A DNA stretch of 34,221 nt from Chloroflexota bacterium. GTDB taxonomy: Bacteria; Chloroflexota; Dehalococcoidia; UBA6926. A program made the position numbers and the translations under genes. Below are positions 9,442 to 18,289 of the stretch, piece after piece (the stretch's first letter is position 1; the number at the start of each line of letters is the position of its first letter). The notes beneath the pieces were generated by a model. That model made no database searches. It was not told where the DNA came from and saw only the letters and a program-made list of their open reading frames with translations. The stretch covers positions 64,914 to 99,134 of the forward strand of contig JAPOOK010000051.1 of NCBI GenBank assembly GCA_026713485.1, given 5' to 3'.

Positions 9442-11334
9442 GTGGACACCACAGACACCCCCAACCCCGACGAGCCGCAGCGCCCCGTCACTCGGCGCGG
9501 CATCGCCCGTCCGCCGCGCACTCGCCGCGCTTCGGGCACCGCAACAACGGAAGCACCGCCGGAGGAAAACTCCGCCCAGGAATCTGTTGCGGACAACGGC
9601 ACGACTCCGGTCGAGACGACGGACAACGGCACGGCCCCCGCCGCTCACCCTGAGCTCACTGCCGCCCACCCTGAGCCCACCGCCGCTCAGCCTGAGCCTG
9701 TCGAAGGGCCCACGGAAAACGGCGCAGCCGCTCCGGAGCCCTCCTCCCCATCAACGACAACGAGGAGGAGTCGAAGCGCGAGTGAAGCCCCCTCCATCAC
9801 GGACGGCCTTCCACCCGCCACCATGACAACCACCACCGAAACCATCGAAGACATCGAAGAAGAGGCGCCACCCCGACGCGCGCCACGCCCACGTCCCGCC
9901 AACGGTGTAGGGCAGCGGCGACGCGAGCGACCGGACCGCGGTGACCGCCCCAACCGGGCTCCCCGCGACGGCGGAGGCCCACGTCCACCCGCCAACGCTG
10001 ACGACGGCGATTCTGACACACAACAGCGTGAGCCGCGTGTCGTTGATCTGCCGGAGGCGCTTCAACAGGTCACCATCCCGCAGCTTGAGGCCCTTGATCG
10101 TGATGAGGCCGGCCGCCTCGCTGAATTCCTCAACATGCCCCCCGGCGCCGCCGTCCGACGTGATGAGATGGTCCATCGCGCCATCCAGACCCTCGGCGAG
10201 CGCGGCGGAACAATCACCGCCAGCGGCATCCTTGAGCTCACCAACGACGGCTACGGCTTCATCCGCCACCGCACCCTCCGCCACAACATCAACGATGTCT
10301 ACGTCGCGCAATCACAGATCCGCCGATTCAGCCTTCGCACCGGCGATTGGGTAACGGGCCAGGTCCGCTCACCCAAGAGCGGCGAGAAATACTACGGCCT
10401 CCTCCGCGTTGACACCGTCACCGGCCAGGAGCCCGAGATCTCACGACGCCGTCCCGTCTTTGACCAGCTCACCGCACTCTTCCCGGATCGACTCTATGAC
10501 CTGGAGACGAACCAAAAGGCCATCGCCGCCCGCCTGCTCAACCTCGTCGCCCCCATCGGCTTCGGACAGCGAGCCTTGATTGTCTCCCCACCCAAGGCCG
10601 GCAAGACCATCCTTCTCCACCAGATCGCGGACGCCATCACCTCCCAATACCCCTCCACCCACATCATGGCCGCCCTCATCGGCGAGCGACCGGAAGAAGT
10701 CACCGATTGGGAGCGCACCGTTAAAGGTGCAGAAGTCATGGCCTCCACCTTTGACGAGCCCGTTGAAGAACACACCCGCGTCGCTGAGCTCGTCCTCGCA
10801 CGCGCCAAGAGACTCGTAGAAGCCGGGCAAGACGTCGTCATCCTCCTTGACTCCATCACACGACTCGCCCGCGCCTACAACATCGCCGCCCCCTCCAGTG
10901 GGCGCACACTCTCCGGCGGCATGGACCCCGTCGCCCTCTACCCCCCCAAGCACTTCTTCGGCGCAGCGCGCAACACAGAAGAATCCGGCACCCTCACCAT
11001 CGTCGCCACCTGCCTTGTTGACACCGGCTCCAGGCTTGACGATGTCATCTACGAAGAATTCAAAGGCACCGGCAACATGGAAGTCCACCTCGATCGCAAA
11101 CTCGCCGAGCGACGCATCTACCCCGCCATTGACGTCCTCAAGTCCGGCACGCGGCGTGACGAGCGACTCTACGACGAAAAGTCCTACCGCGGCATCGTCA
11201 CCCTCCGCCGCATGATGGCTATGCTCTCCAACTCCAACCTTGACGCATCCGATGCCGCAGAGCGCATCCTTGACCGCATCTCAAAGACCAAGACCAACGC
11301 CGACTTCATCGCCACACTATCCCGTGAAATCTAA
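9442..11334 (+). CDS. rho: Transcription termination factor Rho with long N-terminal extension
   Basis: Rho is the hexameric RNA-dependent ATPase that ends transcription. Residues about 1-190 are a low-complexity Pro/Glu/Arg-rich extension absent from E. coli Rho. Then come the Rho N-terminal helical region ([20 protein letters not shown]), the RNA-binding cold-shock-like domain ([14 protein letters not shown]), and the ATPase core with Walker A PPKAGKT, Walker [14 protein letters not shown] and the late [15 protein letters not shown] region. The GTG start at 9442 follows AAGGAGA at a good distance. Inside the extension a seven-residue motif is repeated ([21 protein letters not shown]), and the last copy contains the dispersed GAGCCTGTCGAAGGGC repeat (9691-9709). 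Such extensions in actinobacterial Rho help bind structured RNA; that may apply here. Confidence 0.97.
9691..9709. repeat. GAGCCTGTCGAAGGGC repeat inside rho
   Basis: CCTGAGCCTGTCGAAGGGC lies in frame within the disordered N-terminal extension of Rho, encoding PEPVEG. It matches the copies at 1-17 and 17341-17359 and does not disturb the reading frame. Confidence 0.8.
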
Positions 11335-11486: not shown

Positions 11487-11851
11487 CAGTGACTACGCCT
11501 AGCGTTAGGCGTGGGGCTTTCCGTGTATTGCATGCACACGCGCGGGAAACCCCTGCATAGCGTGGCGCAGTCGGGATAAAAGAGAGCGGGAACCGGAGAG
11601 CGCGGGGCTCTCCACGACTATGGAGACTGACCGGACAAGCAGGAAGCGCGGGAAAGTCAGCGCCTCCGGCCGCAGCAAACGGCTAACAGGAGGGTCTCCT
11701 GACACCCACGGACGGGGAGGAGCACATGCACTCACAAGAACCCTGGCAATCGCGAAGCCCAACGGGCAGCGTGAATAAACCGTTGATTTCCTCTACACTT
11801 AAGAAGAAGGGCCACAGAGGCCCACATCACAGTTACGGAAGGGGGCTTCCT
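11487..11851 (+). ncRNA. Long structured 5' leader, unassigned, riboswitch-like
   Basis: The leader is full of perfect short stems. ACGCCTA/TAGGCGT lies near 11495-11512. CACGC/GCGTG lies near 11532-11559, enclosing GGGAAACCC. GGAGAGC/GCTCTCC is at 11595-11601 and 11607-11613, enclosed by AGTCG/CGACT. CAGGAG/CTCCTG is at 11687-11692 and 11696-11701, GGGCC/GGCCC at 11809-11813 and 11819-11823, and GGAAG/CTTCC at 11837-11841 and 11846-11850. CCTCC near 11663 could instead pair with GGAGG at 11689-11693, so two folds compete. The last hairpin covers the ribosome-binding site of the gene. No known riboswitch consensus was matched with confidence. Confidence 0.45.
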
Positions 11852-14800
11852 GTGAAGCGCAAAGCACTGATTATCCTGTCGATCGCGATCCTCGCGTTCG
11901 CCATGATCCCGGCCCTCGGGGCGGGCGCCGCTGCGGGCACGGTCAAAATCGTCACCCCTGACGAATTGGCCAATCCCTCGGGGTCGACCGGCTCGCTCTT
12001 TGATAAGCTGGACAGCGCCGACTTTGTCTCAGACAAGACTGGTACGGCTGCGAACAATCTGCAGGACGCAGGCGGCACCCTGTTCGTCATTATTGAAGAC
12101 AACGATGCAACGGCGAACCCTCTGACGAACTACGTCGCATACTTCGATGCCCCCGCCTTGGGAGGAGCTCAGGGTGGTGAGGTCTTTGACCTTACTCGGG
12201 CTAACCCTGCCATCTCCACCTCTACGGAGGTCAACCAGATATCCGATTCGGATGCCAATGTGTACGTGGATACGAACATGAACATTGCCCTCCCGGCCGA
12301 CATCAAGTTTGGTGATCGTAACAGGGATGGCAGGCTTGACCACGAGGACATCACCGTCTCAATCGGCACATTTGCAGCAGCGACTGCGGCAGAAGATGAC
12401 CAATCCACTCCAAATGTGGATGAGAGTAAGGTTGGTTTCAGCAGTCCCAGCAACCTGCCAAGCAGCGTGTTTATTCGCTTCGCCGATGACAACACTCAGG
12501 TTTTCTTGAATACCCAGATCATCAGTACAGGCAGTGACGTGCGGATCAGCTTTGCATCCGCAGAACCCAATACCCTTGAGTTCACCACCGGCGCCAACGC
12601 CGGTCAGTCCCGCGTCCAGGTGACCAGCACCTCCGGCGACCCCATTCGGGTTCCGGTGAGTGAGAAGGCACTGAACGTACTGGATAATCCAACTGATGGT
12701 GTCAATCATGACGCTCTCACCGATGCCGATGCCGTGTCGCGTGATTCCGGTGTTTTCGTCGGAATGTTCGGCGTGATTCGCAACGACTTCAAGGATGCTG
12801 GCTCGGACTGGAAACCGGTTCCCACAGACTCTGCACAATCCGAGGAAATAACTGCCACGGGTACTACGGTTTCGACCATGATTACCCTTCCCGGTGTTGA
12901 CAACGACAACGTTCTCAAGGGTGATGTCGCGGTGACCATCAAGGATCCAGAGAGGGACAATGCAGGTGACGCAGCCGATCCCGATGCGGCGGATCCTGCT
13001 GTTGCTGACGCCATCGAAGTCTCCACCGTAGTGGCCGGAAATCCGGATTCGACCGGCGCAGTAGCAGTTACGGTGACCACTAACGTCCCTACTGTAGTTG
13101 CTGACATATTCGTGCTCAGCTACACGACAACGGCCCTCAACGACAACGTGTCAGACCTGATTGCGGCGGTGGAGGCAACTACCATTGATACGCGGTCCTC
13201 TGACGAGAGCGGCCCGTTCGCAGAGTTCTGCGATAGTAGTGAGACCGATAAAGACAAGCAGTGCGCGGAGGCGGATGCCCTTGTGGCAGCTCTGGAAGCG
13301 CATAGGGATAACCTGGGCATCGACAATGACGCTAACGCCAGCGCTCTGCTGGGCATGATTATCGGCGTCGAGCACGGTGATACCGTTACAGCTCGCTACA
13401 GCGATGCCAGCCCCCGGTCGACCCGCAGCCGTAGTGCTGAGGTTGACACGGTCGCCCCGACCATCGGCGGAGTGAATCCCGCGAACGGCTCGTACTTGGA
13501 TGACGATGATTTCGTCATACTTTTCGACGTGACGGACCAGGATTCCGGCATCCCTGATGAGGCGCATGATCCGGGCGAAGCCACCATCCGCGGCGGGAAT
13601 GCGTACGTGCAGCAGACAGTTGACGTGGGCATTGGCGTGCCCGCGGACGGCGCTCCTGAGGAGACACCGGACTTCGATCGCGATTCCGAAATCAGCGATG
13701 GTGAGCGCTACGAGTTGGACATTGACGTTTCAGCCGAGGCCGAGGAAGCCGAAGGGGATGACGACACGGATCCAGTGACGGTGCGTGTCAAGGTCACCAT
13801 CAACGCGTACGACATCGCGCGGAACAAGGCCAAGACCGTCACGGTGAATTACATCATTGACACCATCGACCCGGTCCTGGAGCGCGCGATCACTGGTTGG
13901 GCGGTCAAGAGCCGTGACGACGACCACGTCCTGATAGAAGGCCAGCGCAACAGCATCGTCCTGGTGTTTGACGACACCATCAAGGGCAATGAAGTCCGCG
14001 CGCAGGACATCAGCGTCGTTGGGAACAGCGTCACCAACATCACATGGCTGAACAACTCCGGCTCGAACAAGATCAGCGTTGGCAATACCGGCGACGGAGC
14101 CGGCGCAGCTAGTGATCTTGACTTCAACGCAAAGACCACAACGAGCGGAAGCGCGGCAGACGTGGTTGATGACTTGGACCTCAGCAGCGAGACGAATAAC
14201 CAGGATGCGCGGCATCTGTTGTTCCTGACACTCGAAAGTGACCTGAGCACGAACGCGCGCCCGAACATCGAGATCGATGGCGATGACCTGGCCGACCTCG
14301 CGAACAACACAAACCGCAGCGATCACCAGGCACGCCCGGCAGATCGCCTGGCGCCGGTCTTCACGGTGGACGTGGCTAATGCGCTGAGCAATGATGCGTT
14401 CGATGCCACGCTTACCGCCTCAGAGGCGCTGGATCGGACACCAAGAGCCAGCCTCGTGCGCATGGTCGGTGGAGATACCGATGAACTGCGCCGGACACTC
14501 ACTGTCCGCTCCGGCAGTGGTAACACGTGGGACGTTTCCTCAGACCGCAAGGGTCTGGGCCTGACCGCCTCGAACGGCAGCCAGGACGGTGTGTTCGAGT
14601 TGGAGCTCATCGGCACGGATGACAATGGCAACCGCGTGACCTCAACCCAGGGCAAGTGGGAGCTTGATACCCGCGCCAATGACGGCGCTGCCCCCGCGCG
14701 TGTGGGCGCAGACTCGGATAAGGCCGTGACTCAGAAGATCGAGACGAATGAAGTGACCTTCCTTGGCCTTGAGTTCAGCAACGAGGCCGGCGAGTACCAC

Positions 14801-15631
14801 GGCGACACTCAGAAGAAGATCACCGTCGATAGCATGAGCCTTGAGACCTTGGCAGCTAGCGCGATCGGTTCTAACAACAAGATCGTAGCCAGCCCCACTA
14901 TCGAGGGAACGGCGGACGTGGATGCCGCCTCGGCGCAGAGCTCGGACGGCATCAAGCACGTCATCGCCCTCTCGGATCTCGCGCTCGGCAACTACCGCCT
15001 GAACGTGGGCTTCTCGGATGCGGCCGGCAACACGGGCAAGTTCGGATACGTCTTCACCATCACTGCTCCGGCGCCCGTCAAGGTTGACGTGGTCCCGGGT
15101 TGGTCCCTCGTGTCCATCCCCGGCACGCCGCAGGATAAGAGCATTGAGGGCGTCTTCGCAGGCTCAGCGGTGACGGATGTTTGGAGCCTCAATAACGAGA
15201 CTAAGGTTTGGGAGTTCGCTAGCAAGGATGAGGCCGGCGCTTGGATGGGTACCCTTACCCAGATTGTGGATGGCCGCGGCTACTTCGTCCGCAGCACCAC
15301 CTTCGACCCGATCAAGGTTCTCACGGAGCGCTTCAGCCCGCAGCGCACTCCGCCGCAGTACACCGTGACCGGCGGGTGGAACAGCATCGGCTACACCCCC
15401 GCAGGCAGTGAGAATTCCGTGAGCGTCGACGCCTACCTCAGCGCGCTTGGCGCCACCGGATGGGGCATGATCCGCACGTGGAACGCGGACGCCACCCCGC
15501 CGCAGTACGAGACCTACTTCTCCAGCGGCACGGCGACTGATGGCTTCCCGGAGGCTGACGGTGTGGCCATCGTCGAAAGCGGCAAGGGCTACCTGCTCTT
15601 CGCCACTCGCAACGGCGTGATCGGCGGCTAA
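11852..15631 (+). CDS. Large secreted S-layer/adhesin-like protein
   Basis: A roughly 1,259-residue exported protein. It begins with VKRKALIILSIAILAFAMIPALGAGAAAG, given here by position: positive residues 2-4, a hydrophobic core to about residue 22 and a likely AxA cleavage site near residues 23-28. The mature part is acidic and Thr/Ser/Asp-rich. It contains a calcium-loop-like DRNRDGRLDHED and Ig-like units introduced by VDTVAPTIGG and IDTIDPVLER. The C-terminal ~190 residues hold two related modules starting GWSLVSIPG and GWNSIGYTP. No LPXTG motif or membrane anchor is seen. GTG 11852 is chosen because it starts the signal peptide; an ATG at 11726 with a strong GGAGGAG is in frame and would add 42 residues. 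A strong promoter and terminator frame the gene, so it is monocistronic and probably abundant. Exact function unknown. Confidence 0.8.
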   Translation: MKRKALIILSIAILAFAMIPALGAGAAAGTVKIVTPDELANPSGSTGSLFDKLDSADFVSDKTGTAANNLQDAGGTLFVIIEDNDATANPLTNYVAYFDAPALGGAQGGEVFDLTRANPAISTSTEVNQISDSDANVYVDTNMNIALPADIKFGDRNRDGRLDHEDITVSIGTFAAATAAEDDQSTPNVDESKVGFSSPSNLPSSVFIRFADDNTQVFLNTQIISTGSDVRISFASAEPNTLEFTTGANAGQSRVQVTSTSGDPIRVPVSEKALNVLDNPTDGVNHDALTDADAVSRDSGVFVGMFGVIRNDFKDAGSDWKPVPTDSAQSEEITATGTTVSTMITLPGVDNDNVLKGDVAVTIKDPERDNAGDAADPDAADPAVADAIEVSTVVAGNPDSTGAVAVTVTTNVPTVVADIFVLSYTTTALNDNVSDLIAAVEATTIDTRSSDESGPFAEFCDSSETDKDKQCAEADALVAALEAHRDNLGIDNDANASALLGMIIGVEHGDTVTARYSDASPRSTRSRSAEVDTVAPTIGGVNPANGSYLDDDDFVILFDVTDQDSGIPDEAHDPGEATIRGGNAYVQQTVDVGIGVPADGAPEETPDFDRDSEISDGERYELDIDVSAEAEEAEGDDDTDPVTVRVKVTINAYDIARNKAKTVTVNYIIDTIDPVLERAITGWAVKSRDDDHVLIEGQRNSIVLVFDDTIKGNEVRAQDISVVGNSVTNITWLNNSGSNKISVGNTGDGAGAASDLDFNAKTTTSGSAADVVDDLDLSSETNNQDARHLLFLTLESDLSTNARPNIEIDGDDLADLANNTNRSDHQARPADRLAPVFTVDVANALSNDAFDATLTASEALDRTPRASLVRMVGGDTDELRRTLTVRSGSGNTWDVSSDRKGLGLTASNGSQDGVFELELIGTDDNGNRVTSTQGKWELDTRANDGAAPARVGADSDKAVTQKIETNEVTFLGLEFSNEAGEYHGDTQKKITVDSMSLETLAASAIGSNNKIVASPTIEGTADVDAASAQSSDGIKHVIALSDLALGNYRLNVGFSDAAGNTGKFGYVFTITAPAPVKVDVVPGWSLVSIPGTPQDKSIEGVFAGSAVTDVWSLNNETKVWEFASKDEAGAWMGTLTQIVDGRGYFVRSTTFDPIKVLTERFSPQRTPPQYTVTGGWNSIGYTPAGSENSVSVDAYLSALGATGWGMIRTWNADATPPQYETYFSSGTATDGFPEADGVAIVESGKGYLLFATRNGVIGG

Positions 15632-16773: not shown

Positions 16774-16795
16774 TCCCCTCCCCCACGCCCCCACC

Positions 16796-16860
16796 GTCAT
16801 TCCGGCCCCCCACCGTCATTCCGGCGCAGGCCGGAATCCACGCCTGGCCCGCAGGGCCAG
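16796..16860. repeat. Bipartite palindromic repeat (half-unit, hairpin A, hairpin B)
   Basis: A GTCATTCC half-unit at 16796 is followed by hairpin A ATTCCGGC (16818-16825), loop GCAG, GCCGGAAT (16830-16837). Hairpin B follows: CTGGCCC (16844-16850), loop GCA, GGGCCAG (16854-16860). It sits between the convergent ends of meaB and the winged-helix gene, where it might act as a bidirectional terminator or mRNA 3' stabiliser. Confidence 0.82.
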
Positions 16861-16902
16861 AACTCCCCTCCCCCCTTGATGTAGAAGGGCGCAAAGAATA
16901 TT

Positions 16903-16940
16903 CCTCCCCCTTGATGGGGGAGGGTTAGGGTGGGGGTGAA
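16903..16940. repeat. 38-bp element C, copy 1; supplies the winged-helix stop codon
   Basis: This 38-bp sequence is identical to 17489-17526. It begins with an 8-bp stem CCTCCCCC / GGGGGAGG with loop TTGAT and continues with a GGGTTAGGGTGGGGGTG tail. The winged-helix gene, read on the minus strand, ends inside it: codons ISPPP and the TAA at 16925-16927 come from the repeat. Confidence 0.85.
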
Positions 16941-18289
16941 ATCCCCGCCTCAACCCCCAAGAACCGCCCAATATCCCCAACCTCACCCCGCGCCTCATCC
17001 CAAATAGACCCCAGCGCCCCCTCCATCCCCGGAAACGCCTCCACCGAGATCTCAAGCCCCCGCCCCGCCTTCCCGTCATTCCGGCCACCCCTCCCGTCAT
17101 TCCGGCCACTACTCCCCTCATTCCGGCGAAAGCCGGAATCCATCGGGCTCCCGCCACGCACCCATCTCCACGACCACGTCGCCACCGCAAGCCCATCGAT
17201 AGTCACAACGGGCCGGATCATCCCGCCGCCCGCATTCACCCGAGACATATACTCCGGCGCAACCGCCAGCCCCCGCCCCCGATACCCAAGCAAATAAGTA
17301 TCAAAAAACCCCAACAACCGGACTACCGGCCCCCGCTCACCCTGAGCCTGTCGAAGGGCGAGCCCCCCACCGTCATTCCGCCCCTTATCGTCATTCCGCC
17401 CCCCACCGTCATTCCGGCGAAGGCCGGAATCCACCGCCTGGCCCGCAGGGCCAGAACCTCCGTCCACCACCCACATCCGCTCAGATCCCCTCCCCCTTGA
17501 TGGGGGAGGGTTAGGGTGGGGGTGAACCTCAACCTCCACCAACTCCCCGGAAATCGCCTCAAACCCCGCCCGAGCATCCCGCAGCGGCAGCCCCGACCAC
17601 ACGGAAAAGTCACGCTCCGTCGAAGGCCCAAACGCCCTGAAATAACGCCCCGCCAGCCGAGCGAGTGCCTCATCGCGCGAGAGCTCCGGCCGCTCGATCC
17701 CCGCCAGCCATGAATCCGCCGCCACAAAAGTCTCCGTCTTCCCGTCCAGCAGCGGCCCGTGCGCGATTACGCCCAAAAACCCCCCGGACCGCACAACATG
17801 ATGAACCGCCTGTCCTTCGACCCTTATCCCCTCCGAAACAAGCCGTTTACCCACCTCTTTTCGCGTTAAAGGGCCGTACTTTGTGAAACTCTTAACTAAA
17901 CACTCCAGCGCACGTTCGAGAGTCTTTTCATCGAGACCCATCTGCAGCCGACGTCCACTCCCCGCCGAAAAAGCCGCCGGACCAAGCAGATCCGTCAACC
18001 ACCGATGATCCTCCGACGGAATCAGGTGTAAAGTCCCCCTCATAGCCCACGTACGCACTATAGAACGTGATTCTGAAAGCGCAAACACTACATCTGCGTA
18101 CGTCAGCCCAAAACTCCGAGCCCGAACCTGCAGCGCCCCGGCACTCACATCCTGCGCTTGTATACCGCCCGTTCGACGCACAATCCCCACCACATCCACG
18201 CTTTTCCGAGAATCAACCCCAACATCCAGCCCCTGCGAAGACACGCGCATCCGCCGCGCCTCATCGGCAGTGAGTGCAATAGTGGACAT
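16925..18289 (-). CDS. Winged-helix DNA-binding domain protein (HTH_42, YcaQ/AlkZ-like) expanded by in-frame repeats
   Basis: The N-terminal two thirds resemble the HTH_42 family (YcaQ/AlkZ-like, some members being DNA glycosylases for crosslinks or alkylation): RRTGGIQAQD (the QxQ-type motif), TWAMRGTLHLIPSEDHRW, and the winged-helix region YGPLTRKEVGKRL. The family's later conserved blocks VRLLGFFDTYLLGYR, NAGGGMIRPVVTIDG and VATWSW are present. Between them lie two runs of repeat-derived sequence. One is around residues 255-318 (HPHPNPPPSRGRG, SGLRRND, LRQAQGERG), from DNA 17341-17526. The other is around residues 382-405 (SGFRRNEG, GRNDG), from 17075-17142. Neither shifts the frame. The last residues, ISPPP, and the stop come from a third repeat. 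At 454 residues it is longer than the usual ~370. It may be active, with the inserts as surface loops, or may be decaying. Confidence 0.82.
   Translation of the reverse strand: MSTIALTADEARRMRVSSQGLDVGVDSRKSVDVVGIVRRTGGIQAQDVSAGALQVRARSFGLTYADVVFALSESRSIVRTWAMRGTLHLIPSEDHRWLTDLLGPAAFSAGSGRRLQMGLDEKTLERALECLVKSFTKYGPLTRKEVGKRLVSEGIRVEGQAVHHVVRSGGFLGVIAHGPLLDGKTETFVAADSWLAGIERPELSRDEALARLAGRYFRAFGPSTERDFSVWSGLPLRDARAGFEAISGELVEVEVHPHPNPPPSRGRGSERMWVVDGGSGPAGQAVDSGLRRNDGGGRNDDKGRNDGGGLALRQAQGERGPVVRLLGFFDTYLLGYRGRGLAVAPEYMSRVNAGGGMIRPVVTIDGLAVATWSWRWVRGGSPMDSGFRRNEGSSGRNDGRGGRNDGKAGRGLEISVEAFPGMEGALGSIWDEARGEVGDIGRFLGVEAGISPPP
17075..17142. repeat. GTCATTCC repeat array inside the winged-helix gene (site 2)
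   Basis: Two half-units (GTCATTCC at 17075 and 17096) are followed by a full hairpin A: ATTCCGGC (17120-17127), loop GAAA, GCCGGAAT (17132-17139). On the coding (minus) strand it reads MDSGFRRNEG then two GRNDG-like peptides. Hairpin B is missing here. Confidence 0.85.
17341..17359. repeat. GAGCCTGTCGAAGGGC repeat inside the winged-helix gene
   Basis: CCTGAGCCTGTCGAAGGGC; read from the minus strand it encodes LRQAQG within ALRQAQGERGP. It directly adjoins the GTCATTCC array at 17372-17454. Confidence 0.85.
17372..17454. repeat. Bipartite palindromic repeat inside the winged-helix gene (site 1)
   Basis: Half-units start at 17372 and 17390. Hairpin A follows: ATTCCGGC (17411-17418), loop GAAG, GCCGGAAT (17423-17430). 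Hairpin B is CTGGCCC (17438-17444), loop GCA, GGGCCAG (17448-17454). It is translated in frame as GSGPAGQAVDSGLRRNDGGG-like sequence. It has the same order and orientation as the intergenic copy at 16796-16860. Confidence 0.85.
17489..17526. repeat. 38-bp element C, copy 2, inside the winged-helix gene
   Basis: Identical over all 38 bases to 16903-16940, and again 30-45 bases downstream of a hairpin B. Here it is read in a frame that stays open (VHPHPNPPPSRGRG), whereas copy 1 is read in a frame containing a stop. Confidence 0.88.

Follow-up and report, generated by a model that had tools for sequence, protein, structure and literature searches.

The closest described counterparts of the repeats considered here are the CGTC-tagged REPs, which are defined by an unpaired CGTC, TGTC or CCTC head, a stem of 8-9 bp with AT first, a loop of 4-5 nt and a CCA tail (Di Nocera et al. 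2013, PMC3733652). They make up a large class of palindromes in bacteria, include dRS3 of Neisseria and RPE-4 and RPE-6 of Rickettsia conorii, and were published as apparently devoid of a dedicated transposase. Related events have been described for the Rickettsia palindromic elements (Ogata 2002; Claverie & Ogata 2003) which, in the account that PMC3733652 gives of them, are translated in frame within probably functional proteins.

In-frame insertion of palindromes, known from Rickettsia and some REP-rich bacteria, can now be extended to a genus of Dehalococcoidia (Chloroflexota). The case was recognized in a stretch of 34,221 nucleotides, hereafter the window, which corresponds to positions 64914-99134 of contig C51 in a draft genome of 72 contigs (G000). 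A gene for an AlkZ-like DNA glycosylase carries three dispersed repeat families in frame, namely A (a CGTC-type REP), B and C. Since in-frame REPs have already been published, including copies in the repair genes uvrA, recB and polA (PMC3733652), this gene adds a further example to a phenomenon already described. As with the published CGTC-tagged REPs, the repeats are dispersed, mostly intergenic and occasionally in frame in genes, repair genes among them, and produce inserts of 20-80 aa with several per gene. The differences lie in the host, in the unrelated repeats B and C that share the gene, and in small GIY-YIG genes bracketed by the repeats, an association absent from PMC3733652. Compared with the Rickettsia elements as related there, the units are shorter, belong to several families and occur in a free-living lineage.

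An AlkZ-like gene with repeats read in frame

The first-pass annotation had described a winged-helix gene with a single open frame despite its repeats, and the frame indeed runs uninterrupted over 454 aa. The product matches the profile PF06224 (AlkZ-like, earlier named HTH_42) with 162.9 bits against a curated cut-off of 25.9, and AlkZ (5uuj) is its only match among PDB sequences. The winged-helix assignment can be made more exact: judged by its sequence, the product is an AlkZ-like DNA glycosylase with tandem winged helices, whose glycosylase activity is predicted. The catalytic motif of the AlkZ family is Q-hydrophobic-Q or Q-hydrophobic-D (PMC7367128), and QAQ is kept both in the 454-aa protein (GGIQAQD) and in the homologue alignment.

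An AlphaFold model built from eight sequences (mean pLDDT 80, pTM 0.80) retrieves 5uuj (E=3e-18) and the DNA-bound AlkX structure 9zd6 (E=2e-13) in Foldseek searches. Fold and Q-hydrophobic-Q motif are common to AlkZ, AlkX/YcaQ and the modelled protein, which differs from both by ∼64-79 extra residues in three loops. In the model, the inserts form low-confidence hairpin turns or linkers in an AlkZ-like fold that is otherwise intact and confident. Stretches with pLDDT below 50 (262-266, 278-300, 302-317 and 381-407) all lie in or at inserts, a further one being found at 353-357. The C insert makes the turn between strands 250-256 and 270-275, and the second-site insert that between strands 367-378 and 410-418. 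No insertion interrupts the segment following FDTYLLGY, which probably corresponds to the DNA-binding loop of AlkX (PMC13303869).

At least four repeat copies had been reported at two sites (17341-17526 and 17075-17142). Both sites do hold repeats, which can be assigned to families A, B and C (Table 1), with A present as two full copies accompanied by half copies and by a partner hairpin, D. The division into two sites can be refined, as the first consists of two separate insertions, C and A-D-B, between which the native residues ERMWVVD are preserved. A further A-D-C series (16794-16939) abuts the gene and follows the same order as the series inside it. Elsewhere in the window, positions 11726-15631 contain a 1301-aa ORF with no Pfam match.

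Table 1. Features of the AlkZ-like gene and its repeats (window coordinates) and related loci in other contigs and genomes
Feature	Position or locus	Strand	Basis or detail
AlkZ-like DNA glycosylase gene (PF06224) with in-frame repeat insertions	16925-18289	-	Open frame; Pfam E=2e-47; PDB 5uuj
Repeat C, residues ∼257-268 (HPHPNPPPSRGRG)	17489-17525	+	Exact copies elsewhere in genome; absent from homologues; model
Native spacer between repeats C and D, first site	∼17457-17488		
Partner hairpin D of A-D composite	17437-17454	.	12 A-D composites in G000
Full repeat A (CGTC-type REP), read as DSGLRRND	17409-17432	-	
Two tandem half-A units (GGAATGACG heads), 18-bp spacing	17362-17408	-	Heads 17370-17379 and ∼17388-17397
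Repeat B, read as LRQAQGERG on gene strand	17340-17358	+	
Second full repeat A, CCTC-headed subtype, read as DSGFRRNE	17118-17141	-	
Two half-A units, second site	17073-17112	-	Heads 17073-17082 and 17094-17103
Repeat C overlapping 3′ end of AlkZ-like gene	16903-16939	+	Encodes final residues ISPPP and TAA stop
Intergenic half-A, full A and D adjoining AlkZ-like gene	16794-16863	-	Order as inside gene
Repeat B in frame, N-terminal region of rho (ORF 9442-11334)	9690-9708	+	In window
In-frame repeats in PGK, NadE-type amidase, PurD, DUF5671, MutL, UppP, FolP	L099, L110, L128, L158, L167 (G000); L309, L329 (G002)		
Small GIY-YIG genes between CGTC-type palindromes, several phyla	L176 (G000:C44), L199 (G000:C17), L180 (G046), L181 (G013), L177 (G033), L253-L262		

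Homologues and constraint

When the protein is aligned with seven Dehalococcoidia homologues, the alignment breaks at the inserts, and residues 257-268, ∼290-318 and 376-409 are found in the window protein only. They amount to 85-87 residues relative to two repeat-free full-length homologues (net 78-79), close to the ∼85 first estimated, and to a net gain of 64 relative to a fragment from the same genus (G001). Homologues free of the repeats also lack the inserted residues, so the finding that would have spoken against insertion, namely repeat-free homologues with the same residues, is not seen. The inserts have the properties of RPE-like elements, i.e. palindromes in frame in a conserved gene for which repeat-free homologues exist.

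Two other genomes of the genus, each the single one of its species, are informative. The G001 homologue has short native segments at the insert sites and no A copy. The G002 homologue, 64% identical and cut by a contig end inside the gene, contains two A copies in the first linker, of subtypes that differ from those of G000. Independent insertion into the same tolerant linker is the likeliest origin of these copies; an ancestral insert reshaped by recombination would also account for the differing subtypes, with lower likelihood. For native codons, the comparison of G000 with G002 gives dN 0.24, dS 0.84 and dN/dS ∼0.28, values that average over the time before insertion. Conservation relative to G001 is as high in the block that follows the inserts as in the rest of the protein. 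The neighbours of the gene are also kept, with MeaB downstream in G001 and a CoA-ligase gene upstream in G002.

Repeat families across the genus

Whole genomes were searched with the patterns GATTCCGGC-NNNN-GCCGGAATGAC for A, CCCTGAGCCTGTCGAAGGG for B and CCTCCCCCTTGATGGGGGAGGGTTAGGGTGGGGGTGA for C, the reversed patterns serving as controls. Repeat A has 48 copies in G000, 89 in G002 and 2 in G001; the corresponding figures are 37, 70 and 0 for B, and 9, 2 and 0 for C. All reversed patterns gave 0 matches, which, against the 48, 37 and 9 copies in G000, indicates that A, B and C are dispersed families and not chance matches.

Repeat A has the architecture of a CGTC REP, CGTC-ATTCCGGC-GAAG-GCCGGAAT-CCA at 17405-17435, with a CCTC-headed copy at 17115-17144. 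It shares with the published elements the head, the 8-bp stem starting with AT, the 4-nt loop and the CCA tail. Its 48 copies lie on many contigs, few of them within supported genes. The other two families do not have the head, stem and tail of CGTC REPs: B is an imperfect palindrome that lacks the ATTCC stem, and C combines a CCTCCCCC stem with a long tail. A and its partner form 12 A-D composites in G000, four of which flank the two GIY-YIG genes of that genome.

Contexts were examined in the stretches around repeat matches in G000 and part of G002. Coding status was judged by Pfam and PDB homology, because a codon-usage score trained on the ORFs of the window was too weak; many six-frame ORFs that ran across repeats were set aside as non-coding shadows. 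Among ∼120 copies examined in G000, the majority lie outside supported genes, as would follow from the removal of most insertions into genes.

Similar in-frame inserts have been found in other genes of the genus. Three PDB entries align on either side of an insert: 1php with residues 54-392 and 432-478 of PGK, which enclose an A-D insert; 2yrw with residues 102-471 and 514-561 of PurD; and 1tws with residues 6-60 and 82-286 of the G002 FolP, the last two pairs each enclosing B. MutL has an in-frame repeat directly ahead of its C-terminal domain. Repeats also lie in frame in a NadE-type amidase, in a membrane protein with DUF5671 and, in G002, in UppP, the frame of which is truncated at a contig end. 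In total, at least nine genes of the genus carry inserts, several of them core genes (PGK, PurD, the NadE-type gene, MutL and Rho, with FolP in G002), and two sister species are affected in the same linker. Such genes can be regarded as natural experiments on how proteins gain loops.

Probable tolerance in loops, and the alternatives

The gene is very probably intact and under constraint, with dispersed repeats inserted into loops that tolerate changes in length, and its product is predicted to be expressed and active. Copies of three short repeats, mainly A, would have entered such loops; those disrupting the frame or the core would presumably have been lost, whereas in-frame ones at hairpin turns or linkers would have persisted. 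The first-pass annotation had left the choice between tolerated surface loops and early decay, and had suggested a homologue alignment, a structure model and the dN/dS of native blocks as checks. All three agree with tolerated loops, and the alternative of decay finds no support in them. Tolerance is preferred to decay because the model places the inserts in turns and linkers, QAQ is kept and core genes contain these repeats in frame as well.

Under early decay, inserts would accumulate in a gene whose function is already lost, and chance would have kept the frame open. In its favour, a single gene contains several inserts and a stop derived from a repeat, and the G002 gene is incomplete at a contig end. 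Decay is nevertheless unlikely, given that neither a stop nor a frameshift interrupts the frame, that the frame is kept in two sister species and that both the dN/dS value and the conserved C-terminal block indicate constraint.

It has been speculated for other REP-bearing repair genes that inserts produce a mutator-type effect, and the repeat peptides could likewise be selected for altering the activity of repair proteins. Repair genes do recur, with the AlkZ-like gene and MutL here and uvrA, recB and polA in PMC3733652. Selection is very improbable, however, as metabolic genes are also affected and translation of the repeats varies in frame and strand (DSGLRRND, HSGEGRNP, VIPAQAGI, PEPVEG, RQAQGERG), so that no particular peptide seems to be selected. 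An assembly artefact, in which repeats of a draft metagenome genome were wrongly joined, is hardly credible: repeats do break contigs, as in G002, but the three insert positions are all in frame between native blocks deep in a contig of 99 kb, repeats occupy the same linker in a separate genome (G002) and the neighbouring genes are conserved.

GIY-YIG genes bracketed by CGTC-type palindromes

CGTC-type REPs are found on both sides of small GIY-YIG genes (PF01541) in members of Chloroflexota and Proteobacteria. At both GIY-YIG loci of G000, A-D composites stand on either side of the gene, and they are the same composite as that inserted in the AlkZ-like gene and in PGK. The genome G046 has only two A copies, both of which flank its GIY-YIG gene. 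A survey with a repeat score of at least 36 covered 99 GIY-YIG loci from Chloroflexota and from plasmid and chromid records, as well as 172 control positions. Repeats span the GIY-YIG ORF in inverted orientation at 39/99 loci and in direct orientation at 44/99, versus 0/172 controls, and outward-facing CGTC-like heads occur on both sides at 35/99 loci versus 2/172 controls, these counts not being fully independent because some loci are related to one another. Bracketed genes are found, for example, in Azospirillum, Neorhizobium, Shinella, Sphingobium, Novosphingobium, Neisseria and Aeromonas; published hosts of CGTC REPs include Neisseria, Azospirillum lipoferum and Sinorhizobium meliloti (PMC3733652). 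In the open PMC literature, no report was found that links GIY-YIG to REP, RAYT or palindromic repeats.

The arrangement recalls the RAYT/TnpA-REP system, where a nuclease-type gene is likewise flanked by palindromes that it possibly mobilises. The differences are that the gene encodes a GIY-YIG instead of a Y1 HUH nuclease, that the tags are CGTC instead of GTAG, and that Y1/RAYT genes (PF01797), sought as mobilisers of repeat A, gave no match in G000, G001 and G002, genomes that are ∼90% complete.

The REP-GIY-YIG-REP unit varies between strains. In aligned Sphingobium strains, the intergenic region between fnrL and a response-regulator gene contains REP-ORF-REP in three strains, one short CGTC palindrome in two (TomTYG64 and TomTYG74; L331, L332) and neither in two. 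In Shinella, the unit is present or absent between the same flanks. This variation is compatible both with a nuclease that mobilises REPs and with a nuclease gene that homes into them, and does not separate the two.

The second of these readings has a nearly even chance. The GIY-YIG gene would then be a homing-type passenger that inserts into REPs, which are themselves moved by a Y1 transposase in trans or by template switching. The lone palindrome at the same Sphingobium site is what homing would predict, G002 combines its 89 A copies with no GIY-YIG match, and, among genomes, the presence of Y1 is correlated with that of A (11/17 vs 8/43). Against it stand the lack of a Y1 gene in the searches of this genus and the CGTC-like heads on both sides, seen at 0/14 Y1 loci compared with the 35/99 GIY-YIG loci. 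GIY-YIG also correlates with A at the genome level (12/17 vs 11/43, p=0.0025), which is not the main evidence since Y1 does so equally well.

It is put forward more tentatively, at rather less than even chance, that CGTC-type REPs are mobilised by small GIY-YIG nucleases whose genes lie between paired REPs, and that this activity gave rise to the A inserts of the AlkZ-like gene. Repeat A might then have spread within a unit made of palindromes and the nuclease gene that they flank. Association and strain polymorphism are shown, and GIY-YIG is a testable candidate mobiliser. Should this link be borne out, it would speak to the question of which agent moves CGTC REPs and would provide a simple enzyme to test.

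At six other loci (L182, L185, L187, L191, L203 and L205), the palindromes on both sides of the GIY-YIG gene are related but imperfect (GTCATTCTGAGC..GAAGAATC, GTCATTGCGAGC..GAAGCAATC, GTCACCCTGAGC..GAAGGG), which suggests a wider superfamily, with repeat B as a possible member. The genome G013 has, over many contigs, 55 A copies and 23 matches to GIY-YIG, of which many are fragmentary or contain internal stops, a pattern that looks like a burst followed by decay.
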